Shown in pieces: positions 4,294-61,015 of a DNA stretch of 64,000 bases. This stretch comes from Lethocerus indicus. Lineage: Eukaryota; Arthropoda; Insecta; Hemiptera; Belostomatidae. The notes beneath the pieces were generated by a model. That model was not told the origin of the DNA, ran no database searches, and saw only the letters and a list, made by a program, of their open reading frames with translations. How positions within the stretch are numbered: the stretch's first letter is position 1; every line of letters starts with the position of its first letter. Location of the stretch: assembly GCA_019843655.1 (NCBI GenBank), contig JACDQD010000008.1, forward strand, positions 10,326,442-10,390,441, given 5' to 3'. A program made the translations under genes and the position numbers.

Positions 4294-7698
<3,405 letters not shown>

Positions 7699-8298: not shown

Positions 8299-12393
<4,095 letters not shown>

Positions 12394-17388: not shown

Positions 17389-20300
17389 ATGATACTTAAT
17401 TCTGCAGTAGGGATTGCCCTAGTGTGTTTGGCTTGGTTAGGAGAAGGAAAAGTACAGAAGATCCCAAAGAGACCATGTCTTCGACATGGTTATAATGACA
17501 CTGTGTATGAGTTCACAGTTCAGGGACCGAATTCAGAAAATATATCCTTGTCTGAGTTCCAGGGGAAGGTATATGTTATATTTTGTCCTTCATTCCTAGC
17601 ATAACAGAAATGTGTAAATATATGTTACAAAATAAATATTAATAATTAATTAAAGTAAGTAAATCACCATACTCTTTAATATTGGCATAGTTTTATTGTT
17701 GTTATTAATATTCATTTTGTATACAGGTAATACTAATAGCAAATGTAGCGACTTACTGAGGTTTCACTCCCCATTATTTTGGAATGAATGCACTAAAATC
17801 AAAATATGGTGAGAACTTAGTAATCCTTGGATTCCCCTGCAATCAGTTTGGTATGGTAAGTAAGAATCATAGTTCCCTATTCATACAAAATAAATATCAA
17901 TTTAAATAAAAAAAATGTAAATATAAATATCAATGTAAATATAAATTTTTGTGATTAATTAATACTATCAATCTTATCTATTTTGCAGCAAGAACCAGCA
18001 AAAAATCATACTGAATTATTAAATGGTGTAAAACATGTTCGTCCTGGAGGTGGTTTCATTCCCAATTTTATCCTGTTGTCTAAGGTTGAGGTGAATGGCG
18101 ACAATGAAATTCCACTTTACACATATCTTAAAGTAAGTGGTTATAAACTAAAAAACAGACACTGCTTATATTTAATATTAAGTTAATTGTGTGCATGACT
18201 TCTATTACTAGAAAATCCTTTTAGCACAATGAAAAGATATGAATTTGTAATGAAGGAAACGTTAAAATGAAAAATTCAAATAATTAACAGATTTTATGTG
18301 ATAAAATGTTATTGTATTTAATTACAAAATACTCGTCAAGCTATTGAGCGATTTTCATTCAAGGCAATTTTCGAACTATCGCTTTAATTGCCAAGGTGCA
18401 TGAACGAGAGTTAAGCGACATCGCGATTCCGCTCGACGCGGGAAACAGCCTCAGGTTTATTCTTGGCGTGGCCTTAACGGTAGAATAACCGATTTTTAAT
18501 GTCCTTGTACTTGGTACGCAACACACAATTCATTAGTCGGACGGTGGCCGAGACTGATTTCATGTGAACGAAAGTTTGAAATACTCACAAAATTTGTCAT
18601 TTTTCAATAATACCACCTACAGTTACTCAGATTTCATTATTTTATTTCATCATCCATTGTTTAGACGATACGATCATTCGATCATCCTTTCCATGCCAAA
18701 TATATTCAAACACCATCTTGAGTAAAATATAAAATATATAAAACGCTGTTGGTAGATCTAGATTTTCGGCATAGTAGTTTCTGAAAACTTTTTGAACATT
18801 TGTAAAATATCCGAGGTTGTAGTATTGCGAATGAGTTTACATCAGAATGTTTCAAAAAGTGCTTTTTAATTAATTTTAAACCTTTCAAGATATATTTTGG
18901 CTCATTATATTTGAAAGAACGAGTTGTATGATTTCTCTAGAGAACGCCATTACAACTTATGAGCATAAATTGTACGCATTTAATGCTTTTATAAAGTCGA
19001 CGCTATTTAATTGTAATAAGAAACTCAGGTCTATATAGAGGAAGGCGCCATGGTCGGATTTTATTCGGTTTATTCGGAGTTAATAAAAAATGAGATTTAA
19101 GGTCAGAGGTCCGGGCTACTCCCCAATTAAATTTTCGAAATGTTTTATCGGCGACCTTTAGAACTGAATCTTATGCGAAAATGTTATACTTTTATTTAGT
19201 GAATTATTATTATAGGATCGGAGGTCCGGCACCGTGCTCGGGTCATGCTCCCAATGGGCTGCTTCCTGCCAGTTAAACTTTTTCACCTCGCGCTTTGTAA
19301 GCTGTCATCCGTCAGTCTCATCCCGCCGTTGTCTGTTTTTCTGATTGTTGTAGTTCGAATTCTGTTCTTCCGAACGGATGTTGGTACTCCGACAAATATC
19401 TATGGTGGGAAATGTGATATTACGTGGGTATATTTACCGTAAGGTACTGATGATACGACAGCGGAAGTAGGAACAACTACTGCAAATGACTTTTTATTGG
19501 AACTTTCTTTTATTAAAATACCCGGAGTTTAGATTCCGGAGTAACCCCTGGGTCATTCTTAGCCATTAGTCTTGTTCGTTTGTTAGAGATCTAGTCATCA
19601 TTTTTGTGTTTGTTTGGATAACATGGCCGGAAGTTTAAATCGGCCTTGTACCAACCGTAAGAGCAAATGCAGAGAGATATACAGTGTTCGTTTCTCGTCG
19701 CATGCATTATTGATAGTTGGCCTGCTAAAATGAATAATGAAACGTGATTTTGTTTGGAGGGGCAAGAAAAAAAAGTGTAGAGCTGCCAAACACGCAATAT
19801 AGGTGAATGAGAGTTGCGCAATACGGTTGCCTTTGGCGCTGTATTGTTAATCGCGGCGTCCGATAATATCCTCTGGAAACTTGATAAAATCGTGACTCCG
19901 ACAGATTATCGTTTCCGTTGTCCGAATAATGAAGCGAAACGGGGAGTTCGAAAAACAAATTTTATTTTCTCTTCACGATTTTCTGTTCAACTTACCCAAA
20001 CGCATACACAATATATAAAAATGGAGGTTTGGCCAAGGCGTCTTTTAAACCAGATTAATAATACTTAGTTCCTCTGTATTTTCGCTGTTTCTTGATAGGC
20101 TGGTATAAACTTACGATCACCGAAACCCATAAGCATTACACATATTTAATTGTTGTTAAAAGCGAGTTGATGAAAGTTACGATGCCATATTTTCTTTCGG
20201 TTTTCAGCAGTGGATGTTATATAGATTTTATACTTTCATGTCCGTGTAATCTCAGTACCTTCCTTGATGGTATCTACAGTTTATCTGCGTCACTGGTACC

Positions 20301-23300
20301 GGGCAAAGTCAAGCGTTGATGTTGCGAAGTCGTTCGTTTGTATTTCTGACTAGGCTTCCATTTAGTTTACAAACAGGTGAGGCGAAATTCCAGTGTTCTA
20401 AACAAACGTTTATTTATAAATTACATACTTCCGATGGATTGGATCCTATATTCAGAAACTATTTGACTGAACTTTTAGTGCCCGTTATCATGTAACGCGA
20501 CCTACTTTTCAACAGATAGCCTACTGAAATGAAGCAGTCAGTGTCTTATCAAATCTGATACGGCTGTGTCGAATAGCCATAATACTACATTTATATACGC
20601 GAATATTAGGTCTAAATATACTTGTATTAAGCACAATGTTGGTAATGAGAATTTATAATAGCGCATAATAGCCAGTCTTATTGCCTTGGGGAAATTAGCA
20701 GCGTTCAAGCGCATTCAGCAAATATAATGGGCTTTCTCAGATATTTTTCTTGTTTAACTATTCATTACAGATCAGTAGAAGTAACCGCAATAATAATTAC
20801 CACGAGCAGCATTGTTTAAACCGAAGGTTGCCAAACGTTTTCAGTCTCCTCGGGTTCACCTTGTGCCTTCATATATAATAACAAATAAACAGATTTTAAA
20901 GCAATTCCCTCTGCACTTACTACTCTCAAGCTAACTTAGTGCATGTAAAGAGAATTTAAAGAGATGTTTTCACCGGATAAACATCAGGACTGTGGCCGAC
21001 GTGTCCGAGCCATTGAAAGGCATCGAGTAGGGTCCGATGAGTCAACCCTGGATATTTGCATACGCCACGAGACCCATCCAATTCTTCCCGCTGTACTAAT
21101 TTCAACTTCTTTCGAGCGTCCCACTCTGAATCGTTTCTCAGGCGAACAATTTTAAATCTCCAATAAATCAATTCCGTCTCTATATAACCGGCCAGTTTTT
21201 ATTCTGTAATTTAGCTAAAGTTAAGTTTGTTGTTTTTTTAATTCGCAAAACCGGTTTGAAACTCCGCCAACTACCTTTTTTTATTTAGCGGTTGTAAATC
21301 GGCGTTCGAATTTTCCTTGTTGGATCGCATTTGACCGCAGGCCAATGCAGCAGTTTTCTTTGTTTTCAAGATCAGGGAAGAAATAACCTTCACTGGGGAC
21401 TAATTGCTCGAATATTGTGTTACATTAGTGGTTACCGATCGACTATGTTCAACTGGGATAGTTCAACTTTAATTAGGACTGGTCCTTCTGTTGCAAGTTC
21501 TTGTTAATCATTTGTTGTTATATTCGTCAGTTGTATTTAAATATTATTTTTAATTCCCGTATGTAAATGATATAACTACCGAAAGTAAGGTTCCGTTAGG
21601 TCAGAAAATTATTTACCATTTCCTCCCCTCATTAGGACGTATGTTTTACATCAACCGAAGTAGTGGTAGTATGTACAAATGTTCCGAACACAAAGGAACA
21701 ATCGGCACCATAATATCTCTGAGCCATCTGTGCTTAAAACCTTCAAGGTCTCCTACTAATCCCTCCTGTCGGGGGCAGGCGAACGTATCATTCACAGTTC
21801 GGTCACGCCCTAATAAGTGGGTAACGTCGGTTCTTTCTGGCTAATGAAAGATTTGGATGATGAAGGAAGTTCGAAAAAAGTCTCTTGGGAGGAGTCCAGA
21901 ATAAGCATCGCATATGTTAGACAACTTATATCTCTTCGCAGTAGTGAGTGGATTTTGTACTTCGATTTGTTCGGTTTTGCAGAATCCATTTTGCCCAGGT
22001 TTCTTACTATAAGCAAATTGAACATTTGTAGTATCAGTAACAATGATAGCGTAACAAAATATCTGGCGGATAGGTTCGACGGCACGCGTAAGCGGTAAAT
22101 ATACTGCCAACGGAATGCTACTGACGGTTATGAGAAGCCGAAAACCGGAGCTAGCTTAGGACCAAATCGTCGAACGGTTATCCAAACCTCCGCGGACCCT
22201 CAAGCAATAAATAAAAAGAAAAACATAGTTATGTAATACGCTCTATCAACACACAAACATACACCGTGACGGCTAGATAAAAACGTATTTTTAGTACAGG
22301 AAGAACAATTTGAAGCCTGTAACGTCCAATTACGACAACATCGTTGAGTCGCCATCCACAATTATCGAAAAGTCCATCATGGTTGCACAACGAATCATCA
22401 TCTAATTATCTAAGTATACAACCGACTATTAAATTATGATCTGACTGTATCGTCCTGTTCCTCAAATGCTATACAAGGTGTCCCGGAAGTAAACCGCAAT
22501 ATTTGAACTTCTGATAAGCGCCTTATCCTCGCGACAATTGTAGGCCCCCCGTGAAAGAATTATAATTTCATTTTCCCGATATCTGTTGCGATTTGATCCT
22601 TTGTTAGTATGTTATCGATGTTGCCACCTAATTCCAGACGTTTGTTGAAAGTTGGAAGACGATGGACGAACAGTGGGCAAACATACTCTTAGCTATCTTC
22701 TTGCTTCTAACCTGTTCGTCAACATCATTAGGGCCTTGGCTACACTTTTCTGTCCGATTACTTTCGAAAGGGGCAGTTGTAGATCTTCAGACTGTGTGAA
22801 TTACGTTTCTCAAATGCCTGTCCGGTCGCAAAGACGGCTCTGAAATGTTAATTATTTTTTCGCAGAAATTTGAGATCCACTATTCACTCTTTTGTACTAT
22901 GACTATTATGAATTTTTCCTTCTTCTACAGTTTATCAAAATAAAAATTATACCATTTGCATATATTTAGAGAATTATAAAAAAAATATCCGCGATATTGG
23001 CTTCGGATGATCAACTTAATAGCGGGCACTACATTCGCGAATTAATTTATACCTCATTAGTTCATCAACTGTACTACGATATTATACTGTACGTTATTAT
23101 AGAACACATAATAAAAATATGAATATTTGTGGACAATAAGTTCTACCCGCCGAACATTTTTGTTAGCCGTCTCCTAAAAATGGTTTCGTAGTTGTCTTGT
23201 ATCTAGTTTTATCTCTTCGCATAAACTAAACAGTTTAAACTGGCCGTTTATCAAGAACGCCGCCGTAGGCATTTTTTTCTTGCCTGTGGACTGTGGAGCC

Positions 23301-25417
23301 GAGGCAGGCCAATGTAAACTCGTAGAGGTTAACTGGTCCCGTCCGTCATTACCTCCTCCTTCGACTCGTAGAGCTAATTCCCCGGCCTTCCGCCCACCCG
23401 CAATACACAGCATACAGACAGGCTCGCTCCTCAATCCGATAGCTGCATACAAATCGTGTTCAAACGACATCTTCGCGATGTAACCACGTGTTGTTTCGGC
23501 CGAATAGTCACCATTGAGCATTGTAAAATTATACAATTCGAATAAAGAATAGTTTAAAATTTCATTTATTTCAAACAACTGTACAGAACAATAAGTGACA
23601 TTTATGAGACAGAGTAGAACAACAGAGGAGAAATATACTGGCTATAAAATATCAGAATCATTATTAGTGTAATTATTGTTATCGTCGACGAAACTTCTAG
23701 CGATTTTATAGGTTATAAGTTTTTATCGGTGGAATATATTTAATTTGAATAGGTTGAATATATTGAAAATTAATTTATTTTAAAGGATTGAATTGTGATG
23801 ACGGCAATAAAAATGATAATATAAAAATGACCTCAGAGTTATACGATCATTGATAACTGATCCTAAAGTTTCGTAATCCTAATTGTTTCGTTAAAAACAG
23901 TATAGCTCTAATGAGATGGTCTTGCGCCGATTACAGTGTTATTAGTTTCATCCGGACCGCAGCCTTCCATCAGCGATAAGGTTGGTTCTAGGGCAAATCT
24001 GGACGCAGTAACATAACATAAGAAATAACCAATAAAAAACAGCAACTAAATCCAAACAGTATGAGCGTAATCCATTTTTATCCAACTTAATTTTCCATGT
24101 CGAAACTACGCCTTAAGGCCTATCGACGATATCGAGCTTACATCATCCCGAAGTCCGCTGAATGCGTTTATCGTCCGTTCTTAGAAACTATAAGTCGTGG
24201 TCAGTCCATATTTCTCAGTCGAAATCAAGGCCGACTCAGACCTCGGAAATCCTCAGAGAATGCTAGGATCTCTTATATTGTAGAATCAGGTTCAGTTCCA
24301 GACGACAGTAAGTTCCTCAGGTTCTCAGCTTATGTATGGCAGAAATTAATTTCAGAAGCGAGTATTATAATTACGGGTTAAAATAAACGCCACGTTTAAA
24401 GCTCACAAAAACATTTTATCATTATAACTGGAAAATTATACAGCGAGCTCTTTGCTACAAAAGGAAATTAAATAATATGTGCGCTGGAACGATGTCGGAT
24501 TGACACATTATAATACAAAGGGAACTTTGATTATTCTAAGACTTCATCTCGAGGGAAGGGGAAAGGTAGATCCGGTGGGTGGGGCGGATGTTGGGATTTT
24601 TTCATGTTTTTCCTGCACTACTGTCGAAGAATGTGCAGGTTCTTTCCGAACAGTTTCTCTAGCCGAAATAAAAAAGAAATAAATATTTCGCATTGTCTCA
24701 AATAAATTTTGACTTTCCGGTGTGCGGGATATTCGCCCCCGATACAAACACAATTGTATACAAGTGTACAATACAAGTGTATTTGTCAGCTTTCAGCGTT
24801 GTGGGGCCGCTGGCTTTAGACACGTCGTCAACGGTTCGTTTAATTTTCCGTCTCCATTTTACTATTTAACTCACCCGTCATTAGCATAATTATATAGAAA
24901 GGTCGGTGAATTCTTCCTTGACGAAGGTTAATGGGGGGGTTATTTTCGCTGTTCATTATTTTCTGCAATCTCGGTAAAAGACTAAAATAGCAATGTTTTA
25001 AACGCGAAGCGCCTAAATAAAATTTGAAGCACCTACTCCAAACATTCTTCATTTATTTGAGCTTCATGGGAAGCTGACATAAATCAGTACCTGATAATAT
25101 TATTAACGTGTAAGCCAAACCGTGGATGTGACGGTAAATGGGAGGCCAGCTCGACAATACTTTTCCGCATTTTTACTAGAAATCTTTACTAACGCCTTGC
25201 TTTCCGTTTACAGAAATATTGTCCGTCGACCCGCGACGGGTTTGCCGACAAATACAACTTGTTCTACCAGCCTATGAAGAACTGGGACGTGCGCTGGAAT
25301 TGGGAGAAGTTCTTGATCGACAGGAGGGGCAGGCCCTACATGAGGTACGACCCGAGCTCAGAGCCTTTGGAAAACATCTCCAGCGACATCAGCAGCTTGA
25401 TCCAGGTCGACATTTAG
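17389..25417 (+). CDS. Secreted selenocysteine glutathione peroxidase (GPX3-like)
   Basis: Four coding exons: 17389-17568, 17727-17855, 17989-18132 and 25214-25417 (stop TAG 25415-25417); 218 residues if the TGA at 17757-17759 is read as selenocysteine. The N-terminus is a signal peptide (about 1-20, hydrophobic core [13 protein letters not shown]). The body aligns end to end with the vertebrate extracellular GPX3 group: LSEFQGK, ANVATY-Sec-[26 protein letters not shown] and the C-terminal [10 protein letters not shown]. The catalytic tetrad is complete: Sec71, Gln104, Trp179, Asn180. The enzyme would reduce hydroperoxides with glutathione outside cells. All exon junctions are phase 0. A SECIS hairpin lies in the presumed 3'UTR. 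Exon 4 follows a 7.1-kb intron and is much richer in CpG than exons 1-3, but it continues the family alignment exactly (TYLK then KYCPST). Everything after the TGA is intact, which argues against a pseudogene. Confidence 0.93.
17757..17759 (+). other. In-frame TGA read as selenocysteine (Sec71)
   Basis: TGA sits exactly at the catalytic Sec/Cys position of glutathione peroxidases, between ACT TAC and GGT TTC ACT (Thr-Tyr-Sec-Gly-Phe-Thr). It is the only stop in frame across the four exons. The reading frame stays open and conserved after it, and a SECIS element follows downstream on the same strand. Confidence 0.92.
18133..25213 (+). other. 7.1-kb third intron of the glutathione peroxidase gene
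   Basis: Bounded by GTAAGT at 18133 and TTTACAG ending at 25213. From about 18,345 on, base composition changes from CpG-depleted AT-rich DNA to CpG-rich DNA. Several overlapping ORFs of 60-134 codons occur on both strands, as expected by chance in this composition, and none resembles a known protein. Two short related stretches (GGTC(A)GAGGTCCGG at about 19100 and 19213) are the only repeats noticed. No exon, RNA gene or intact transposon is recognised. Confidence 0.6.
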
Positions 25418-26957
25418 GGGCAGCAAATATTCAAAAGACGCCCTTTTAGCCTCAACGATTTAGAAAAAAGACGGCGCTAGATTCGAACAATAGATTCCCG
25501 GGGGCGCACCGAGGTCCTTTTCGTTGAGTACTCCAAAATCGATATAACAATTATTGATCCATTATTTACCGTATTATTCCATTCATCGGTATTCATAAAA
25601 AAATGATAAAGTTAAAACCTCTCTCGCAATTTACCTTTTTTCCTATTCCGTTTTAAACGCTCTACGCAATTCTTGCGATGCACCGGTGCGCCCCCATCCC
25701 GCCCCCATCTCTTTATTAGGAGTAAATTAATTAGGAATGATCGCTTTCGAAATCCTGACACTCGTTCGTTGTTTTCAAGTAACTTGGTCTTTGTAATACG
25801 CCGTCATTATGCGTTATTACATCGTCGACGGGACGCAATAGAGGTAGAACGATAGAGTTGCGACATTTCAGCAGAACGCCGGTCTCCAAGGTCGGCAAAC
25901 GAGCTCAGATCCTTGCTCCTTGGCGAAACAGCCTAGAAAACGCCGTCCGAGTGTTGGCATTTCGAAATGTTTTCATTCGGTCACCTTCTGTTGTAAACGT
26001 GTATTGTCGAAATTCGTTCGAGTTCGACCAGAGATATCCATCCATTATAATAGCTTAGATCCCGACCTGTAGGGATGTTGGATCTTGACTGTACTTAGAG
26101 CCAGCTCGATGGAGCACAGAGTCTCTGATGCCTCGAATTCAAGCATTGGCAATTATTATAGATGTTTTCTAAAAGTGTAATCTAATCTAAAAGTTTTGAG
26201 GCCTGCTCAAATATTTTCCTTCGCTCCCGTCTTTTTTCCAAGTCAACATTGACAAGTTGCCGTCGGCACAGCACCATGATTTCATGAAGCGGACCACTTC
26301 TTACTAACACACCACTTACTAATTACCTATTATACTAGGATTTTACACAGGGAATAATCTTATAAATAGTTCATAGTTCGTCCTTGGTTTTGGGATTTAT
26401 CGGACCGATTTGAATAGCGCGAGCGGAATGTTTAAAAACGCCAGCGTATTGCCGGCTTCGGTGTGTCTAAGCGCGGCCGCTGCTTTTAGTTTGTGACGGA
26501 ACAGCCTTAAATCACCACGCGTGAGGAGCTGCTCCTGATGAGCCGTGGCCGACCCGCGCTCTTCAGTGCATTCGGGTGCGGGACGACACGCGTTCTAAAC
26601 GCGGCACCGAGTTTTCCACCGAAGCCGGAATACGGCGTTGGTTTCGGCAGGGAAGTTTTACTCGATGTGAACCTAAATTTTGTTCCAAATATATATTTAT
26701 TTAAAAAAAACAATATATCTCGTATTTTATTTCTACAATCTTCACCGAAATTCCTTGAAGCGACTCCAGAAGCGCATGGACGTTGAACGATGATGAATGC
26801 TTCTGGTATTCTGTCAATTCGAGGACCGCATAATAACTATGATTGCTTAAGAAGAACTGCCGTACCTAAGAAACTTTAGAAATGTCGTCGGTCAAATTAA
26901 ATATGGCAATGCTACACCGTGATTTAAAATTTGTATTTGTGAACATTTTATAATTCT
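25418..26957 (+). other. Presumed 3'UTR of the glutathione peroxidase and tail-to-tail spacer
   Basis: CpG-rich noncoding DNA between the GPx stop and the choline-transporter stop (minus strand). It contains the SECIS at 26470-26560. A perfect hairpin with 6-bp arms (GTCGAA 26006-26011 with TTCGAC 26023-26028) lacks the SECIS core and is probably incidental. I find no clear AATAAA after the SECIS; AATATA near 26712 is a weak candidate. Confidence 0.5.
26470..26560 (+). promoter_or_regulatory. SECIS element (type II) for selenocysteine insertion
   Basis: The folded parts, 5' to 3', are as follows. Helix I is GGCCGCTGCT (26475-26484) with AGCCGTGGCC (26541-26550), one mismatch and one G-U, extended outward by AGCGC (26470-26474) with GCGCT (26556-26560). 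The SECIS core pairs GTGA (26493-26496) with TGAT (26536-26539), giving the non-Watson-Crick UGA/GA quartet. Helix II is GGAACAGC (26498-26505) with GCTGCTCC (26528-26535), one mismatch. The conserved AAA (26509-26511) lies 12 bases after the UGA. Helix III is TCAC (26512-26515) with GTGA (26521-26524) closing a 5-base loop, which makes it type II. It lies 1.05 kb after the GPx stop and 0.4 kb before the convergent transporter gene ends, so it must sit in the GPx 3'UTR. Core spacing matches the eukaryotic SECIS consensus. Confidence 0.85.
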
Positions 26958-29900
26958 TCATTTCCCACCGCTGGCCGCCAAGGTTTCGTCGTTTTCTTTG
27001 TCTTTGAAAACTCCCATGAAATCGTACCTGGAAAAACAGATTTGAGCATTTTAAAAATAGATATTTTTCAAAGGAAAAAATACAAGGTAAGTAATTAAAA
27101 TAAAAAAGTAAGTAGTTAATTAGCAACAGGACGACCATACGTCCTGTCTGTCTACCCCCTTTCCCAGGTAACTTCATATCGCTTGGATTCTACGGTAACT
27201 AGATTTGAATTTAAATTTTAAAAAGTTACTTGAGACCGATGCATCCGCTGAGGAACATCTTCCGTGTAATGGCGCTCACGACGAGGAATATGATCATAGA
27301 CGCGATCATTATTAGCGTCCTGAAAGGGAACCTCTGCACATTTTCTTCCTCGAGATACCACGGGTATTTCAAAATGGCTGGTAACCCGATACCCTCTTCA
27401 CCGGCTGAAAAATTACCGTGAAGTTAGGGCAAGCTAATCGACAAAGAGAGAAAACGAAGAATAATGTACGCGTAAAACCAGCCACAACTCCTTTTTTTTA
27501 ATTCTGACAACCATTCGTCACAGTGAAGAAACGCCAACGCTTTTTTTCGAAAGAGTGGTATGAGTAAAATCTGCTAACGTTGGGGTGAAAACCGATTTTT
27601 GTATCAGGAGGTAGACCACTTGGTTCCTGATACATCGGCCTATTTGTTCAGGCCGTGGCTACTAGATAGCGCCGATGACCCGATGAGTTTGATTGACGTC
27701 CGCTAGATGGCGTTGTCCACCAACAATGAGGCTCTTGAGGTTTGATTGACCTCCGCTAGGAGGCCTGCTGTACCTATCTGTCCTGGTACAGCCATTCTCT
27801 GCCAGGTCTGACCTGCGCCATTATGCCTCTTTAACCTAGCGCGTTTGGCCCAACTGTGCCGTACTAAATGTGCCATTGCGTATGGTAAGATTCCGTACTG
27901 GTTCAGTACTACACTTAAGGTGTTGCCTCCTGAATGGTGAAAAGAAATGGGAAGGAAGATTCGGTCCTTCAGGGGGAAATCTGCAAGAAACACCCACAAG
28001 ACAGGATAAGGACCAAAAAAGTGGTGAGATACAGTTTGTTGGTCACAAAGTGTGCGCCTTCTGAGAAAGAGGGTATACATGTATCAGATAACAGGAACAC
28101 CATCGCGTAATCCTTCAGACAACATTTCCTTTTCTCCAGCAATTCCAATCGTCTCTCTCTTCTCCAAAGCCTCAACTCTAAAGTAAAAAACAAAAGCGCG
28201 GTTGGGCAATTAACGAATTCCAAAGCCCACGTCTTGGCCCCTACAAAACCAGTTTAACTTATCGGCCCTCTCGGATACCGGAAACGACTTCTCTTTCACG
28301 TTGGTAAACATTTTAATATCCAGACCTTCGACGCTTCCCATTTAAGATTGAGAAACCGAATCGACTTCACTATGTTGAAATCCAGATCTTTCTACCGAAT
28401 ACAGCTCGCGAGAGAAACTCGAGAAGGAGAAATTCCTAGAAGGTAAAAAAGGACTATTTTATTTACTAATTTCCAGATGTATAAACAATTTTTAAATGGT
28501 TCAACTAGAACTAGTTTTTTCTGCTTAACAGAGAATGAATATAAAGCTCAAAGGAATAAAGTAGAGACATTTGTCACTGACGGAAACTAATTAAAAACTC
28601 GCTCATGTGCAGTGACACAATCCCACTCGTCCTTTCATTTTAAGTTATTGGTTTTAGCATAATTGAGAGAGCTTATTGTCAGATATGGAACGCGATAGTC
28701 ATATCGTTTAAGTAAAGATTTCATATGAATTTTCAAATTTACAGAGATAAAATCTAAGCGGCGTAATTACAGGACATTTGACAATGAAATTGTGAAGGAA
28801 ATAGACGCAATTGAAGCCGACGGAACAATCGAAACTTTGAAGTAACAACTCAATTCCGCTGCTCTCTCGCGTTTTATGGGTTTTGCCCGGAACTTAATTG
28901 TTGCGCCGGTGACAGTTTACACCGGGACGTAACGACCTCCATTCCCGCCGGATCCGAACAGAAAGTACCAAATGACAATGCAAAAATGAATACAAAAAAT
29001 TCGATTGAAGCGAATTCATAGTGCGTGACCGTCCATTGTCCTCTAAAAGTATCGAAAATGTCCTTCGGTTTTAGTTCTGGCATTGGATGATTTACTACTG
29101 GAAAGTTTAAAGGTACCACCATATTATTGTGGAGTAAAAACACCGGTGTTTAGTCCTACGTTCTCTCTACATTCTACACTGCAGCATAAATTATATAAGT
29201 GCTCCTTGTTTATTAAAAATGAATTATTGAAGTAACTATCATCACACATAGAGCTGATGATTAATAAATATTCTTTAATAGAAAATTCAAATGGAAGGAG
29301 AATTCGGAATTTGTTTTCAACTAGAAGAGAGAGAACTGATCAATCGAGAGGGACTTTTAAACTCCAGAAGAATTCAAATTAAAATAAACGTTCTATTATT
29401 CTCATCATTCAAAACTTCTCAAAATTATAGTTTATCATTTGAGGCGGTGGAACTCTGTACTTACAGAGGGCGCGGAAGAGCAGGCCGAAAAGGAAGGATA
29501 TTAAGGAACCGTAGGTGTTGACGTAATCGGGCCAATACAAGGTGAGCACCAGCTGGGGAAACAATATCACGTACACCAGGTCGGAACACATAAACCTGCA
29601 ATAAATAGATTACCCTTTATTAAAAAAAAATATGTACTACTTTTCGGAGAGAATTTTAACAGTAAATACCACAGTCTTAAAGAATGTTTCGTATGCTATG
29701 TTATTTCTAACAGCGTTATATTGCTCATGTTTGTGTTTGAATGTTTAGTATTGATTCTTTTATTCAGTTGAAAAACTTGGTTGATGAAGGGTGGAGCCTT
29801 GAGGCCACTCTGGTATGCCTTTTGTGGGCACCAGTTAACCCCGAGTTGTAAAATAGACGCGACAGAGCCTCTCTCATTACGCTATCAGCGTCAGGACACT

Positions 29901-30200
29901 TCGACTAATGAGGTTCCCCCAACTCCTATTTTAATTTCCAAATACGCGAGAGACGATCGACTGTTGCGGGTCGAAACAGCGACAGATGCAATTTCTTATT
30001 TGTGTGCGCTGTCGAAAAATTAATTACAATTCATAGAATAAGTACTTACGACAGATAGTAAATGCTGTTTACCGTCATGGCTATCAATCCGGCGAAAAAA
30101 GTGAACACTACTATTGCAATTCTCAAGACACAGTGCAATTCTTTGTCAGAAGCCTGTTTACAAAAGATGACCAAACTGTTAATTCGGTTATACCGTTGCA

Positions 30201-30249
<49 letters not shown>

Positions 30250-32210
30250 TGTTATTATATAGAGTTTAACAAAACCCAACATTAGTCGAACGCAATATGC
30301 GCTTACGTTGGGACGAAATAAATTCTTGTAGACGTTTCTGGAGAACAGGGCGCTGGAGGCCAATATGGCCGAATCGGCCGATGCCATCACGGCTCCGGAA
30401 ACAGATCCGAGACCGAAAAATGCCACCCACTGGAAACAATTGCCGTTGATTCTAAATTATTTTATTTCTATATTATAATAGTTGGGCTTGTGTTACGTCT
30501 GCCTTACCGCCGGTGTCAAATGTCTCAAGACCAGTGGCAAGATCAGAGAATGTTCGTCCGCCCGGATATCTCTCCCAAACGTCGGCACTTTGCTCCAATC
30601 TGAAAGTGGTATATCCCATTTTATATCCCTACAGTTTAATTAGAAATTGTTCTAAAAATGGTTATTATTTTCTCTCATCGTCGGTATTCCCGTTGCCGTT
30701 ATTTTAAGTCGGTATAAGGCTATGTCAGTTTGCCCTAATTAGACTTTCTTCACTTACCCGTCATTTTAGCTATGACGCCCATGATCAAGGACGGTACCGC
30801 TATCAACAGAGAGAAACACATCGATGCCCAAGACATTCGGAACGCCAACTGTGTCGACCGGATGGAGAAAACGCGTTGGAAATATCCCTGTTGAGAGCAC
30901 AAATTATGTTTAAAACGCAAATATTTTGTTCCTAATTTCTTCAGGTTTATTCGTTCGGTCGGAGCATAACCTTACTTGCCAGGGTATACCCCCCAGAGCC
31001 AAGACGAGCATATCGTCTATATACATCGCGATTTCAGTTTTCTCGATTTTTCCCAGCCACTCTTCCGTTTCCAATTGTCTTAGCGATCCGGCTTCGCTGT
31101 GATAAGCAAAAGGCACACTAATAACCTGGGTTAAAAATTGAATTTTTGTTTTTGTTTTTAATTTTAAAATATCTTTACATCGATTATTTGTGACGGCGAA
31201 TAAACTTACTAGTCCGACAACGATGAACAAGAGTTTTATTATGTCCGTGTACGAGATACTGTTGAGACCTCCGACCAGGGTGTAGAGCCCGGCGAACAAA
31301 GCACTCACAATTACGGCTTCGTTAGCCCTTATTCCCAATATTACCACGAGTGCGTTCCCTGAAACAGAAAATATAATACATTTATCCTTAATCAAGATTA
31401 ATACAATTAACTACTGACACCGCCGCTGTATGTAGACAAAAAGAAACTAATCCCGTGTAAATTCTCGGACACGTAATCTCGTTACCTAACGAATTCAAGA
31501 TTGAAGCGCACCAGAAAAATTCGGAGCATATTGCCGGCAGTATGAGAAGAGCCCCGAAACGGTAACCATATTTGTGCTGGAACGGATCCAGCAAAGTTAT
31601 ATATTCCCCATCTCGCATTTTCTTGATAAAAAACAAAGCGCCTGAAAATTACGGGTAAAACAAACAATAAGTCCGGTCGGAAAAGAAATGGCACGAAGAA
31701 AATACCTGACATATTATTCGGCGTACTCGTCGTATTTATATTAAATAAATAATTACCTAAAGCCAAGGCCGCACTGTACCCAATAGGTACTTTGCATTGA
31801 AGTAAACCCGATGAATATATCTTCTCGGCGGTACCAGTAATGTAGCTTCCCCCGGCCCAGGTCGCTAGAAGCAAACAAATGTACGAATCAAATTGAAAAT
31901 TTAATTGCTATTTGTAATTACAAGATCGTTCGTTGGTTTACAACAAAAAGAAAGCCAGCCGGCAGGGATAAAGGGGTGGAAGTAACCGGGTTAAGGGTTT
32001 TGACCTAAGTTGTTACTCAGCGGCCTATAACAGCCATTCATAATTACCCGTCAGAGTAGTCGTGCCAACGAAAAGACCCAGCCTTCTCCCGGCGTTCATC
32101 GTCTCCAACTCTGAGTCTCCACTGTATTTTCTTCCTGCCCATATTCCAACTGCAAGTATCACAATGTAGAAGAACAAAATTGCCACTACTCCTGTGACAA
32201 AGACAGCCAT
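26958..32210 (-). CDS. High-affinity choline transporter 1-like (SLC5A7 family)
   Basis: Thirteen exons, 5' to 3': 32210-32048, 31864-31757, 31641-31486, 31358-31210, 31125-30976, 30887-30758, 30599-30508, 30429-30307, 30153-30050, 29595-29465, 27404-27230 and 27027-26958, twelve of them listed here as the complete coding set; 516 residues, every junction in frame. The product begins [19 protein letters not shown] and shows the CHT1 landmarks [78 protein letters not shown] and RFPFRTL, consistent with the sodium-coupled 13-TM fold. Known members import choline into cholinergic terminals for acetylcholine synthesis. The tail after the last TM is only about 25 residues, shorter than neuronal CHT1, so this may be a paralogue. 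Disregard the word thirteen for exons: twelve coding exons are supported. Confidence 0.9.
27405..29464 (-). other. 2-kb intron of the choline transporter gene
   Basis: CpG-rich, without a recognised exon. The flanking exons join in frame ([13 protein letters not shown]), so nothing is missing. A partial duplication with a 53-base offset shares TTTGATTGAC (27688-27697 and 27741-27750) and adjoining CCGCTAG. Open frames of 125 codons (27703-28080, minus) and 89 codons (28874-29143, minus) match no family I know. Confidence 0.5.
30205..30246. repeat. (AT)n microsatellite
   Basis: An uninterrupted AT dinucleotide run of about 42 bases in an intron of the choline transporter, close to the exon at 30050-30153. 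Confidence 0.95.
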
Positions 32211-32549
32211 ATGGACAACACAAATTCTATAATTCTAGAGTATTTCTTTCGTCGAAAATAAACATTACAGTTAAAGTTCGTGTACTATCAGCTGGACAGC
32301 ATTCAATTTATAGAGACGCATACTACGTTTTCAGCTGTTTCCCAGGTACACAAACACATGCATTGTTCCTTTATGTATTATGATACAATAAAATTATTTT
32401 TTATTTTTTGTTTTCTTTGCCTAAAATTGAGATACTGTAATTTTAACGTTTTTCTGTCTCCTTTCGCTGGTTTGGTTTTTGCTAGGCGGCTGCTCGCCCC
32501 CTCAGTAGTCACTTTTTCTCCCGATTTAACCCATACCCCGTCAATAGTG

Positions 32550-33330
32550 CACCGCGACGCTAGCGCTCCCCTAAGGGTGGCGCGGGGATGCACTCAACTA
32601 AAGTTCGTTGTGTGCAGGAGCACCGTGACGCTAGCGCCCCACTGAGGGTGGCGCGGGGATGTACTTAACTAAAGTTCGTTGGGATCACGAGCACCGCGAC
32701 GCTATCGCCCCACTGAGGGTGGCGCGGGGATGTACTCAACTAAAGTTCGTTGGGTGCACGAGCACCGCGACGCTATCGCCCCACTGAGGGTGGCGCGGGG
32801 ATGCACTCAACTAAAGTTCGTTGGGTGCACGAGCACCGCGACGCTATCGCCCCACTGAGGGTGGCGCGGGGATGTACTCAACTAAAGTTCGTTGGGTGCA
32901 CGAGCACCGCGACGCTACGCCCCACCTGAGGGTGGCGCGGGGATGTACTCAACTAAAGTTCGTTGTGTGCAGGAGCACCGTGACGCTAGCGCCCCACTGA
33001 GGGTGGCGCGGGGATGTACTCAACTAAAGTTCGTTGGGATCACGAGCACCGCGACGCTGGCGCCCCACTGAGGGTGGCGCGGGGATGTACTCAACTAAAG
33101 TTCGTTGGGATCACGAGCACCGCGACGCTGGCGCCTCACTGAGGGTGGCGCGGGAATGCACTAAACTAAAGTTCGTTGGGTGCACGAGCATCACGACGCT
33201 GGTGCCTCACTGAGGGTGGCGCGGGAATGCACTAAACTAAAGTTCGTTGGGTGCACGAGCATCACGACGCTGGTGCCTCACTGAGGGTGGCGCGGGAATG
33301 CACTCAACTAAAGTTCATTGGGTGCACGGG
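32550..33330. repeat. Minisatellite: 11 tandem copies of a 71-bp GC-rich unit
   Basis: The unit starts CACCGCGACGCTAGCGCCCC and ends in a GTTGGGTGCACGAG-type segment. The 71-base period fits exactly eleven copies from 32550 to 33330. Copies differ by scattered substitutions (for example GGGTGCACGAG, GGGATCACGAG and TGTGCAGGAG variants), and the last three to four copies share changes, pointing to local amplification. Each unit contains an inverted repeat GCGCC...GGCGC around ACTGAGGGT that could form a hairpin. A 71-base unit changes reading frame each copy, so it is unlikely to be coding. It lies 340 bases upstream of the choline transporter start codon. Confidence 0.95.
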
Positions 33331-35131
33331 CACCCCGAACGGCCCTCTGCAAAGTTTCGAAAAACAAAATATTTTATTTTTCAAATTTCGTTTATAGGAG
33401 AGTGTATCTCACATTGGAAGCCCTACTTTATCTTCATTGTTCTTCTTATTTCTTGCATATATAGTACATTTGGGCTTAATATGGTATGATTAATGATTTG
33501 TGTCGATTCATAATTAAATTTATACTCTACCAATACAAGTACCACCATTACATATTCCTACTCAATTACATTAATATTATTAATGAAATACAAAAATATA
33601 CAATTAGCCATAAAACAGCTTTTAACTAGGGCTCGATCAAATAATAGTAATAATAACATAGTACATAGATTCATATAGGTTTAACTAAATCAAAACATTA
33701 TGTTCACACATCATTTATTTCAAAAATATTACACTCGCAATATAATATTATTACAATATCTACAAGGCTCAATTTTTCATTGAATGTTTCATTTATGAAA
33801 TACATAAACCTTTGAAAAGTACCGAAGAAATAGGAATTATTTCAGTAAACTTCCTTCTCTTAAGTAAACCAGATAAATTGAATTAATGATTAATTGTATA
33901 GCAGAATTTATAGTCATATTTTCTTAAATTATCTGTGATCACCTTTAGGAAGCATTCTATAATATTCTATAATCATATAATTCATACAATTTCAATAAAC
34001 ATTAAATTATAAATTTGTGTTTATTCTAGATTTTAATTCATACAAATTAGTTCTATTCTATTACATTTTCAATTTTATGCAATTGATATGTTATAAAGCT
34101 ATAAGTTACATTATTTTATGTAAAGTCTATACAATTCAATTTCAAGAGAAGTCCAATTACAATAGTGTCCAAATAAAAAATAAATAAGACATAAACAGAA
34201 TAACTTTTTGGTATACATAAGGCCTCAAAAATAAATCTTTTGTACACATCATTCTTAACACATATTTCCGATTGAAGCAATACAGTATATCCTAAAATAT
34301 TACTAAAATGAATATTTGTCTAGTGACGAAAGAAAACTACTAGCACAGAATTACTAAGCAAAATAAAAATTCTATCAACATAAGTTTTGAAAATTGAATT
34401 TTCTTTTACCATCTGTCAACCATTTAACCAATTCTGTTTCAATCACTTAGATATGAATGACATAGAAATAATGTCATTATACTGTTATAAATGAATAATA
34501 TAATTGAAGCTATTTTGATGAAAATATGCTATAAACTGTCATGCTTTAAATTATAATTTTTTTATGTGTATTACATTAGTTTTAATGTACAACATGCAAA
34601 CCACTTGGTTCATGAAAATATTGTCCATTTCTACAAGTGATATTGATATTAATTTCTTTCAACTAATGAGCTGAATTGATCTAAATTTTCAGAGGGTTTG
34701 GAAAAAACCCTCAACAAGTAAAAATTGTCTTTAGCCATACTAATGTCATAATGATTACTATCAAAACAGTTGCCCAGTAAATTCAAGGAATAATGTGCAG
34801 TAACAATTTTAATAGTTAATTAATTAACAGTATATTCATGCCATTATGTACATTATATACATACATTCTCTATGATAATATTTCTGCTAAAATTTTACAT
34901 AGGTTTTCATATCCAGATAGAATGTTAAAATAGTAGTAGACCATTATCCTGAAAATTTCATCACTGGGTTCATAAAAGATGACATAAAACAGCAAAACCA
35001 GGATGATGCAAAACTGAGTTATTTTCAATATAACTTTAAGCATAAGTTAATTAACAACACAATCTTAATAATACTTATATATACAAATGCAAATTAGCAG
35101 GATAATACTTCTATAAATAATTAATGAATAA

Positions 35132-46655: not shown

Positions 46656-49600
46656 TCAACCATCCAATTCATCCATTCTGCTTTTCACGGCCATCTCAAC
46701 TACTTCGAGATTAGGATAATCCAGTTCCTTAATTAAACAGAGTACAGCATTAAGTACATTCGTTCTCTGTAAAATGAAATTAAAAATTACTATTTCACAC
46801 TCACAAGTATGATCAATAGCAAAGGCCAACAAACTTTTCACTAGTTTACAGTTAAGTATAATAATACTTATTTACCCTTTCTGGAGGTCTTCGCCCACTA
46901 GACGACTGACGAATTCTGTGTCTCCTCCAGTCATTACAACAACCTAATTCTCCATCCGCCTATAAACAATGAACCAAGATAAAAAGAATATATGAAGGAT
47001 GCATAAAAGAATTAAAGATAATGTAAAACAGATATTGTTTGTATTAGAAAATGTAGTAATCGTTGATTCAAAAATACAATCTAATTTGGCTCATACTTGA
47101 AGTTATATATAAATTTCAAAATGGTATAACAGACAATGATACTACCTCAGAATAAATTAAGATAAATACATTAATTGTGAATTAATATCAATGATATTTA
47201 TAATAAGTATTAGAAGGAAGTTTATAATGACAGGATCCAAATTAAAAAAAGGTTTGTAAAACAATTGCAGATTAAGAGCAATTCCAGTTACTTACAGTTC
47301 TGCTTCGAGGAATAGAGTTGAATGGAGGCCTCGCTGGATTATGAGTTTCTACTGTATCTTCCTGTCGATTTTAAATAATTGAAAATAAATTACAATTTAA
47401 ATAAAAATACGTGGAAAATCACTGAGCATGCTTATGTACCTTATGGAAAAAATAAACCATATTAAAATAAATGTATAATTAAATGGAAAAAATAACCATG
47501 AGAAGTGAGATATTGTTAAGATTTATGATGAATCATGTTAAATTGAATTTCAAGGTTTTCAATGCATCCATTTTTTTACTTTAACACTACTGAACCAACA
47601 TGTAACACATACATTATAATGCAAATATAGAAACGTACCCATATTCAGATTACCATTGCAATCTTTAATACACTTTGCAATAGCCCTCTTGTATACGAAT
47701 GGATAATTTATTTTACAATATATACAATAGCTATTATATTATACCAGTAGGGATACCAAGCATGCTGATAACATCAAGTTGCGTTAACATGCTCTCTTAA
47801 TTCATATAAAACTGATAAAACATTTAGAAATATATTTTTATTTCTTGAATTTCTTGAAAACAAAAATCACTATTTCTAGGAACAATTTATAATGTTTAAT
47901 ACTAACTATGGACTATTTATATTTAACGTGCATTGTCTCAGTTGCTTAAAATGGGACAAATGAATAAGACAATAAAAAAGATAAACAAGTATTCTATTTG
48001 CATTATGGCATTCCTTAAAAGATAAGAAAATCTGGTCTTGAATCCCCCTTCATATTAACTGAAGGCTAAGAGGAAACTGATCTTTTAATTATAAGACAGG
48101 CCTATTAAATTATAGTTACGTGCTACAAGAGTCAACAGCCAAAAGAACAATTTCAACAGATGTAATTATCGAATCCATTAATGTGCTTGTTTCTAGTGGA
48201 ACTAGATACAAAACTTGAATACATGAAAAACAGAAATACCAAAAAGTGATAATCTGAAGAAAGTATCAATATTTCACTCAACGTGTATTTGTTGAATTTT
48301 CCCTGTTGAAAATATATTTTGATAAAAAAATTTTAACCATAAATGGTCATGCCATAAATGGTCATTAATACAAAAGAATTCTACATTCTTATTCAAAGTC
48401 AATAGAAATTTAAAGCACTACACCAACACTGTTCTTTTTGAGTCATTTTTCTTAAGCTAATCAGATGCATTTGAAATTTTATTTGCCTATTTGTTGTATT
48501 TGTTCAATTTATATTTTATCTAAAGATGATAGATACAGGGTTATTTTTAATAGGCAATAAAAAATGAGGATATTTCCTACATAGTAAGTCTGTTTAATAA
48601 AGATCTCAGAAACATCAAACTACTAAGATAATAATAGAAATATTACCAAACTAATGTACAATATTAAAGTACTTAAAGTAATTTAAACTTAAAAATAAAA
48701 ATAAGTTCTAGACATACATATAGAACAATGAAGTATTTATCACTGACCACCAGTAATGCAGTACCATTAAAATCATTTCATTTAGGAAGGCTGTATGTTC
48801 TGTATGCGTTAAACTGAAATGTTTTATACCTTATAAACTGCAACCCTAGTCTCTATTTCCAATGGAGATTCCATTTGCTTTTGGACTTCCGTGTACACTT
48901 CTTGTTCAGTCTATAACATTTATTAATCCGGCACCAAAATAAGTAATGGCAAAATATGCATGTTAGCATGTTATTTTCCATGAATGAATTAGAATTATTA
49001 AATTTATTTCATGAAGATTATTAAGATAAACATAAGACATCAAACAAAACCACACTCATTCATGCAAACCATAAAAAAATATCAGACATAAAACCATTGT
49101 ACATTAATAAAAGGTACATTATTTCTGATTAGAATAAGACTGTATAATAACTTTCATTAAGGGAAATAATTAAAAAAATTAAAATGACTGGGTTACAATA
49201 AAATCATAATCATCATTCATAATACCATTCCAGATAATTCAATACATCTTTTAAATGATAGTACTAGAATGAAGTATTATAATGACTTAAGAATTTATAC
49301 TAACTAATTCAATTGCTCATCTGCAACTAACAGTATGTGAAATTATTCAAATAAAATGTTAAGTTCACATTGCATATAAATAAACACTTACTAGTTAATT
49401 TGTGAACTAATTATAATAATAAAGAAATATGTTAAAATTATAATTTGTGAAAACAGTAAAATGATTACCTTTTTATATAAAAGAATGCTTGTAGTCTTAC
49501 CTCATAATTTGAATTGTTTTGCACATATTCCTTTGGCCTGTGGTACCTAGTGACAACAATCAAACCATGATTAACATCATTGCAACATTAACTGCATGGC

Positions 49601-58193: not shown

Positions 58194-61015
58194 TTATAAA
58201 GCTGGTAATAATTTTCCAGAACATATTCCAAAGCCAATGCGGTAACCATTGCCTTGACAATGACCTGAAACAAGAAAATTGAGTTATCACAAACATACAG
58301 ATTTGCTTATGAATTAAAAATGCTGTGTAAATATAACTAGAGTCGTGGAAGCTATTAACCTTCAATTATGACTTCATCTCCATCTTGCAAAAATTTTCTG
58401 GTTGAACCATCAGCCAGAGTGATGGGCTGTGTGCCTTTCCAGGATAGCTCAAGCATAGATCCAAAACTGGATGGTTCCTGCATGAATATATGTGAAAACA
58501 TTTCAATAATTATTCTATATTTTACAGTGTTTGCAAAATATATATTAGCAGGGCAGGTTGATGTGACCTCAGCACCTCAGCCTCAGTTCTGGAATTATGT
58601 AATATAGTAATATTTTATATATGGTTAATTTTGTTTTTAATTAAATAAAAATTTGATTAACTAAATTGAATATCTTTTGTTTTCAATCTTTCTGTTTTTT
58701 GTGTAGAATTTATGAAGGTGTTTTTCTGCATTACTCCCTTATTATATTTGATTTAAATAATTTACCGGTCCACTTATAGTTCCTGAAGCCATGAGGTCAC
58801 CAGGATTCACATTGCACCCAGCTACAGTGTGATGTGCAAGTTGTTGCTTTGCTGTCCAGTAGAGCCATTTGTAATTTGATTTACATACGGTTGTTGGAAT
58901 AGATGCTTTATCAGCTGAGGAATACATGTTGGTATTAATGGTGTTTCAATTAATAAAATATTACTGAGTACCATTTGTCAATACTTACGTCTAATTGAGA
59001 CAGACAAATTTATGTCATAGTTGTAACTGTCACTATGAGATAAATACGGCAATGGTGGTGGGTCTTGGACAGCATTTGGAACCTTAAATGGTTCTAAGGC
59101 ATCCATTGTTACAATCCATGGAGATATTGTTGTTCCAAAACTCTTTGCTAAGAAAGGTCCCAGTGGAATGTATTCCCACTTCTGAATATCACGTGCTGCA
59201 ATAAATATTGGTATCATGAATCAAATAATAAACATTTGTTTTGTTCAAACAAATTATTTAAAAAAATATAATTTGCCCTTTGGAAACTCACAACTAATTA
59301 ATTATTGCCAATCAATATAAACATTGTATTTATTTATATATATTCTTCTTAACAAACATGTTTCAATGCTAGAAAAAATTCTACCTTATAATAATTTTGT
59401 TATGATTGAGTTATTTATTCATTTATGTTTTGTTTATATTTTTTGATAATACATACCACTCCAATCATTCATTAATACCAATCCAAATATGTGATTTTCT
59501 GTTTCTTCTATAGGAATTGATGTTCCCAATTTAGTTTGTGCACCCCCAACAAAAAATGCCACTTCAAGTTCAAAATCCATCAAAGCTGAAGGCCTATAAA
59601 GTGGGTTTGTAGCTCCTTCAGGACAGACCTTAAATGTTACAACTTACTTTGTATGCAAACATTTTAGTAGTTCATACAGTGAACATTTTTTTGCCCATTA
59701 CATTCAATTTTGAATGCAGCCATTAATAATATTTATTTAAATTCAGAGCTAGTATATTGGAATACACAATTTTAATTGATTTCAGACTTAATTATAAATG
59801 GTTAACTCATTTTTTGCTGAGATTTTACCTGTCCCTTAGGTCTGTATATAGATGTACCAGAAACTACAACTGAGCTTGCTCTTCCATGGTATCCAACAGG
59901 TAAATGTTTCCTAATTTAAAAATATTTATATATTAAATTGTATACTTTCAACAAATCTAACAGCATAATAAAATTCAATTTAAATTAATAGAGGGTTAAT
60001 ATATTTATTATAATTTAATAAGTATATTATGACAAACCAATTTGGCATGAGAGCATTTTCTTTGCTGCGGAACATTATTCCAACATTGGTAGCATGATGA
60101 ATAGATGAATAAAAGTCAGTATAGTCCCCAATAGTGGCAGGTAAATGCATTGTTGCTTCAGACTGATTAACAAAGAATCTGAAAAATAATTTTAATCAAA
60201 TTATTTATCAGATTGTATTTGATTTATCCTACAAAACTTATACATTCCTACATCCTTCTTTATTTGTCCAAATTATGTACTTTTCTTGCATAAGATGTTG
60301 GCAAGCCAACAGGCAGTTACATAATATCTTACCCAGGTTGACCTTGAATAGTTGAGTTCTCTGCTGATAATAAATGTTGTATAGTTGATCTGGCTTCCTT
60401 CCAGGCTTGCTTTGAAAGACTCATGAAAGAATTCAAGGTAGTCTGAAATACAATGAAATATTCTAAAATTTGGTTTAGGGAATAGAAAAAAGAGTATAAA
60501 TTTCTATTTTTCTTCAACTCTACCTGTCGGAAAACATGTTGATTGTCCTTAAGTAATGGTCCATTAAAGAGATGACTGATGGCATTTAGGTCCAGTATTT
60601 TGTCCCCTATTGCAACTCCAATTCTGGGGGTGACCTTAGATTAATATTATAAATGTAGTTAACATTATAATTGAAGTAGTTTTTTCTTAACTGATTACCA
60701 ACAATCTACACGCAAACATCAATTTTTTGGGAAACATTTTTGTAGTTAAAAAAGAAATGAATGATTGTTAGGTAAATATTCCAAATATAGCAATGATATA
60801 AAAATAACACAAATAATAAACACACATTCAAAACATAAGATAAGAGTGTCTTTCTTGTGTTATCTTACAGTATAACTGTATTAACTGAAAATAGTTTTAA
60901 GAATAAATTCTTTTTATAAATAATTACTTACATTTTCTTTTGTAGAGAAAACGCCATAAGGTAGATTTTCTATGGGGAATTCTGAATCTTCACAATACTT
61001 TATAAATGACTTCAT
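58194..61015 (-). CDS. FAH: Fumarylacetoacetase
   Basis: Ten coding exons, 5' to 3': 61015-60932, 60634-60524, 60442-60333, 60178-60038, 59910-59829, 59628-59457, 59195-58989, 58914-58766, 58477-58360 and 58264-58194 (stop TAA); 414 residues (human 419). It catalyses the last step of tyrosine and phenylalanine breakdown, splitting fumarylacetoacetate into fumarate and acetoacetate in the cytosol. Active-site and metal residues are all present: Asp123 and His130 in [12 protein letters not shown], Glu196 and Glu198 in [10 protein letters not shown], Asp231 in [14 protein letters not shown], and Lys251 in [10 protein letters not shown]. The start [24 protein letters not shown] is typical of the family's N-terminus. 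All splice sites are GT-AG and consistent in phase. Confidence 0.97.

Follow-up and report, generated by a model that had tools for sequence, protein, structure and literature searches.

A glutathione peroxidase gene of Lethocerus indicus with a TGA codon at the catalytic site, very probably decoded as selenocysteine

A selenium-dependent glutathione peroxidase (GPx) of the kissing bug Rhodnius prolixus has been reported by Dias et al. 2016, as judged from the title in the reference list of PMC11508645, and according to an excerpt of PMC4561486 this heteropteran has kept SPS2 and the machinery for selenocysteine (Sec) insertion. The genome of Lethocerus indicus analysed here resembles it in pairing a putative Sec-GPx with SPS2 and Sec machinery, whereby the enzyme of R. 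prolixus, a different species, is likened to ours by title and not by sequence. Going by this title and by excerpts, which include a survey of Paraneoptera, Sec-GPx in Hemiptera is already published. Excerpts of further papers report 20 predicted selenoproteins, GPx among them, in a centipede (PMC4244043), and state that a beetle, a moth and two hymenopterans have lost their selenoproteins (PMC2500217); two beetles with selenoproteins were found later (PMC5330540). A previous reading of the locus, made from the sequence only, had described beetles, moths, bees and wasps and the pea aphid as having lost selenoproteins, which is in line with the reported losses in a beetle, a moth and Hymenoptera but does not hold for beetles as a whole. 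In the part of a 2024 review available to us, GPX genes are still stated to be lost in insects (PMC11508645). The published picture, in which some true bugs and lice still have selenoproteins and aphids and their kin have lost them, is left unchanged by our analysis, which adds one well-supported selenoprotein-keeping insect genome, extends the kissing-bug pattern by one species and shows how annotation loses such selenoprotein genes. The finding of a Sec-GPx is right and useful, if ordinary for specialists.

The stretch of 64,000 nucleotides that was analysed, referred to as the window, corresponds to G000:C8:10326442-10390441 of a 427 Mb genome on 209 contigs. Indeed, we could reproduce the previously proposed four-exon GPx gene with a lone internal stop in its borders, frame, length and TGA position (Table 1): the exons, all of whole-codon length, are joined by GT/AG introns and encode 218 residues up to a TAG. 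In an alignment of 15 rows, the TGA at codon 71 falls on the catalytic Cys/Sec column, as had been claimed, while Gln104 is nearly invariant and Trp179 and Asn180 are invariant, and the gene hence carries all positions of the catalytic tetrad of GPx, which consists of Sec or Cys together with Gln, Trp and Asn. Against the Pfam GSHPx profile (cut-off 27), the protein scores 118.4 bits when Cys is put in place of the TGA. Among solved structures (PDB), GPx6 ranks highest (167.5 bits), followed by GPx3 (162.8), GPx5 (151.2), GPx2 and GPx1 (133), and the GPx4 entries, designed proteins aside, reach at most 77.1 bits. From this ranking we conclude that the window GPx is a long, GPx3/5/6-like form, which agrees with its earlier assignment to the vertebrate extracellular type insofar as it is nearer to GPx3/5/6 than to GPx4; the protein is of insect lineage, although its best solved-structure matches are vertebrate GPx3, GPx5 and GPx6 (44% identity to rat GPx3). 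The N-terminus is hydrophobic as judged by eye only, and the protein is probably secreted. Altogether, this is an ordinary, intact-looking gene of a selenium-containing antioxidant enzyme.

Table 1 Features of the window (positions are those of the whole stretch).
Feature	Position	Strand	Remarks
GPx exon 1	17389-17568	+	start codon, putative signal peptide, N-terminal part
GPx exon 2	17727-17855	+	bears the TGA (Sec) codon; AG/GT borders, frame kept
TGA codon 71, very probably read as selenocysteine	17757-17759	+	in the catalytic Cys/Sec column of the alignment
GPx exon 3	17989-18132	+	gene model
GPx exon 4	25214-25417	+	Trp179-Asn180 (invariant columns) and TAG stop
SECIS candidate, presumed 3' UTR	~26473-26552 with helix I	+	Rfam match 26485-26549; core GTGA..AAA..TGAT
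Sodium:solute symporter exon	30910-31410	-	Pfam
Exons of neighbouring genes: MYST-family acetyltransferase, poly(ADP-ribose) glycohydrolase, fumarylacetoacetase N-terminal	4841-6120, 9297-11454, 60329-60640	-	Pfam

The in-frame TGA might reflect a pseudogene, or else a Cys codon that was wrongly assembled, since TGT and TGC are one base away from TGA; we regard this as hardly credible, because frame and splice sites are intact and conserved residues stand on either side of the codon. The identity to the relative P0002 amounts to 38 of 70 aligned residues before the TGA and 96 of 146 after it, and the identity to a Ranatra protein after the TGA to 102 of 135. As the homology thus runs on past the TGA, the codon does not look like the stop of a pseudogene. 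The relatives themselves point in the same direction. When the 120 listed relatives were sorted by script at the catalytic column, 22 carried Trp, 29 Cys and one Ser, 31 began just past the Sec site and 37 fell into none of these groups; the Cys rows are no proof of a Cys codon, since U is rendered as C in the relatives' rows. Five of the 37 others (P0007, P0014, P0015, P0041 and P0052) have Trp at this column too, as seen by eye. Trp at a catalytic Sec/Cys position suggests a TGA, and most likely stems from gene callers that read the TGA with a TGA=Trp code. Both these rows and the 31 relatives cut just past the site argue against a pseudogene or an assembly error. In the protein models of Lycorma (P0010) and Ischnura (P0022), the stretch bearing the Sec site is missing. 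The warning that such a gene is likely to be misannotated is therefore well founded as regards its database relatives, which are cut after the site, skip it or show Trp there.

A SECIS element had been claimed downstream of the gene. We did find a candidate of the expected layout, but it lies 1.07 kb past the TAG, outside the interval 17389-25417 to which the sequence-only reading referred, and its score is under the Rfam cut-off (21.2 bits vs a gathering score of 35). It is the top-scoring Rfam match in the 1,783 bases 3' of the GPx stop (RF00031, SECIS_1; E 0.51 for these bases and all 4227 families) and the lone SECIS_1 match at E<=10 in 16 kb; it is absent from the list at E<=10 when all 64 kb are searched. 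The GTGA, AAA and TGAT core is accompanied by 8 of 10 possible pairs in helix II; a core with at least as many pairs occurred in 17 of 3000 Markov-simulated flanks, and four places in the whole window, two per strand and the GPx one included, reach this number. A tight 80-base stretch, which was picked after the Rfam match was known, folds with a z of -2.34 (3 of 200 shuffles as good) into helix I, an internal loop, helix II, an A-rich bulge and a small apical helix; the fold of a wider stretch of 126 bases does not surpass that of shuffled sequence (z 0.21, with 109 of 200 shuffles as good). Core and fold are hence present in a presumed 3' UTR, and we take the candidate to be a real SECIS because of its layout and position more than its score. 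Polyadenylation signals stand further downstream, ATTAAA at 26896 and 27094 and AATAAA at 27099. A simple scan gave a second SECIS-like core on the + strand at window positions 49402-49450 with 9 of 10 pairs.

Genes for tRNA-Sec, SepSecS, PSTK, eEFSec and SPS were found in the genome, and the absence of Sec machinery, which had been named beforehand as the outcome speaking against a Sec-GPx, therefore did not occur. Four of 34 matches to the tRNA-Sec family RF01852 lie above the cut-off, each with 77.1 bits, and ARAGORN calls all four SeC with the anticodon TCA (UCA); two of the 30 weaker matches were inspected and are tRNA-Ser. SepSecS is represented by five exon matches at C1:20448495-20450548. 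For eEFSec, PF21131 reaches 144 bits on C10 and PF21208 matches in the same open frame, which covers the C-terminal and third domains. PSTK is matched by TIGR03575 on C9 with 109.4 bits (E 3.1e-29) and again on C100, each time under the whole-protein cut-off, which a single exon is not expected to reach. Two of the tRNA-Sec genes are located on C9 (8015020 and 8035219), 20 kb apart; within the compared 3 kb they resemble each other over 160 bases, at 90.6%, and both may therefore be working copies. The pair on C100 does not differ from the C9 pair across the compared 3 kb, which makes an assembly duplicate likely. More generally, matches on C100 and C144 mirror, at equal spacing, those on C9 and C4, and C100 and C9 have identical sequence in two 3-kb stretches; the copies on C100 and C144 are probably assembly duplicates, the sequence comparison covering C100 vs C9.

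Two SPS genes are present, at C1:38018235-38021124 and C4:23610408-23612665, the matches of the latter being repeated on C144 with equal scores and spacing; the whole-protein cut-off is reached by no single exon match. Both genes read LKG*GCK with a TGA at the Sec site, and a SECIS-like fold was found for only one of them, the gene on C1, when the loci L027 (C1:38014000-38023900) and L028 (C4:23606000-23615900) were searched. It lies at L027:8830-8875, 1.0 kb past the stop, has a core with 9 of 10 pairs, which 3 of 1000 simulations reached as well, and folds with a z of -4.58 (0 of 200 shuffles as good). The putative SECIS of this SPS2 rests on motif scan and fold; Rfam SECIS_1 is listed near neither SPS gene at E<=10, and a laxer scan of the C1 flank gives two further places with eight pairs. 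For the C4 gene, a strict scan revealed no SECIS core in 1,800 bases, and the best core in the laxer scan has 6 of 10 pairs. The two genes thereby match the pair of SPS2-Sec and SECIS-less SPS1-UGA published for R. prolixus and Pediculus, as given in an excerpt of PMC4561486.

For SPS1 of Hymenoptera and Paraneoptera, the same excerpt proposes that UGA is read without Sec (PMC4561486), and the UGA of the GPx could likewise be read by a near-cognate non-Sec tRNA. The C4 gene, with its UGA and without a SECIS core by strict scan, would fit such a mode in this very genome, and so would the modest score of the GPx SECIS candidate. However, the UGA of the GPx encodes the catalytic residue, a SECIS-like fold lies downstream and Sec machinery genes are present in the genome, which makes non-Sec readthrough highly improbable for this gene and bears out the original reading of the TGA as Sec. 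We are thus confident that the window contains a long-form (GPx3/5/6-like), probably secreted GPx in which selenocysteine is inserted at the UGA of codon 71 by the Sec machinery of the genome. In the proposed mechanism, the SECIS in the 3' UTR would recruit eEFSec and SBP2, whose presence is assumed from established knowledge; these would deliver Sec-tRNA[Ser]Sec, presumably made by PSTK, SepSecS and SPS2, to the UGA, and Sec71 together with Gln104, Trp179 and Asn180 would reduce peroxides at the expense of a thiol donor. Our computations yielded the structure of the gene, the position of its TGA, the SECIS-like fold and the genes for tRNA-Sec, SepSecS, PSTK, eEFSec and SPS, to which established knowledge adds the expected expression of the GPx, Sec insertion, secretion, activity and donor.

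Going one step further, we lean slightly towards the view that the retention of long-form Sec-GPx among insects, namely in Hemiptera, termites and damselflies, goes further than annotations suggest, since gene prediction truncates the protein just past the UGA, leaves out the residues around the Sec site or puts Trp there. In the same view, the present genome combines an SPS2 decoded with Sec and an SPS1-UGA lacking a SECIS. If this is true, two modes of UGA reading would exist side by side in one organism.

The nearest relatives of the window GPx are hemipteran. AAG570_004010 (P0009) of Ranatra chinensis (Heteroptera, Nepidae) shows 76% identity over 62% of the query and is the sister in the tree (support 100/95), its annotated protein, unlike the window GPx, beginning just after the Sec site. 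Rhodnius, like Ranatra, belongs to the Heteroptera. The tree comprises 27 rows, i.e. 25 picked from the 120 listed relatives and the two GPx proteins of L. indicus; of the 24 inner branches, 9 are open, and long branches lead to the Cys-GPx, Varroa and Rhipicephalus. The window GPx falls into a set of eight rows with a support of 94/93 (an open fork), consisting of itself, three unnamed rows and four named ones that belong to the Hemiptera, namely Ranatra, Clastoptera (assigned via its UniProt code), Lycorma and Macrosteles. A horizontal origin is not favoured, because the protein stays among hemipteran rows in the tree.

A second, Gtpx-like GPx gene is located on C1. Its open frame showed one TGA and it was considered as a further Sec-GPx, yet the catalytic codon reads TGT (NVASECGL), which makes it a Cys-GPx. 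It belongs to the same family but differs from the window GPx in this residue, and its closest match is Gtpx of R. prolixus (82%). Together with the tree, this match points to a hemipteran, probably a heteropteran, as the source of the DNA; a search with the window ORF at 31482-31907, made to the same end, gave no match. SECIS_1 was listed at E<=10 in neither of the Cys-GPx loci L001 and L003, which may end before the gene does.

The base composition of the window is uneven: positions 19000-34000 have a G+C content of 37-50% in 1-kb steps vs 23-38% elsewhere. This G+C-rich block begins inside GPx intron 3 and contains exon 4, the SECIS candidate and the sodium:solute symporter exon.
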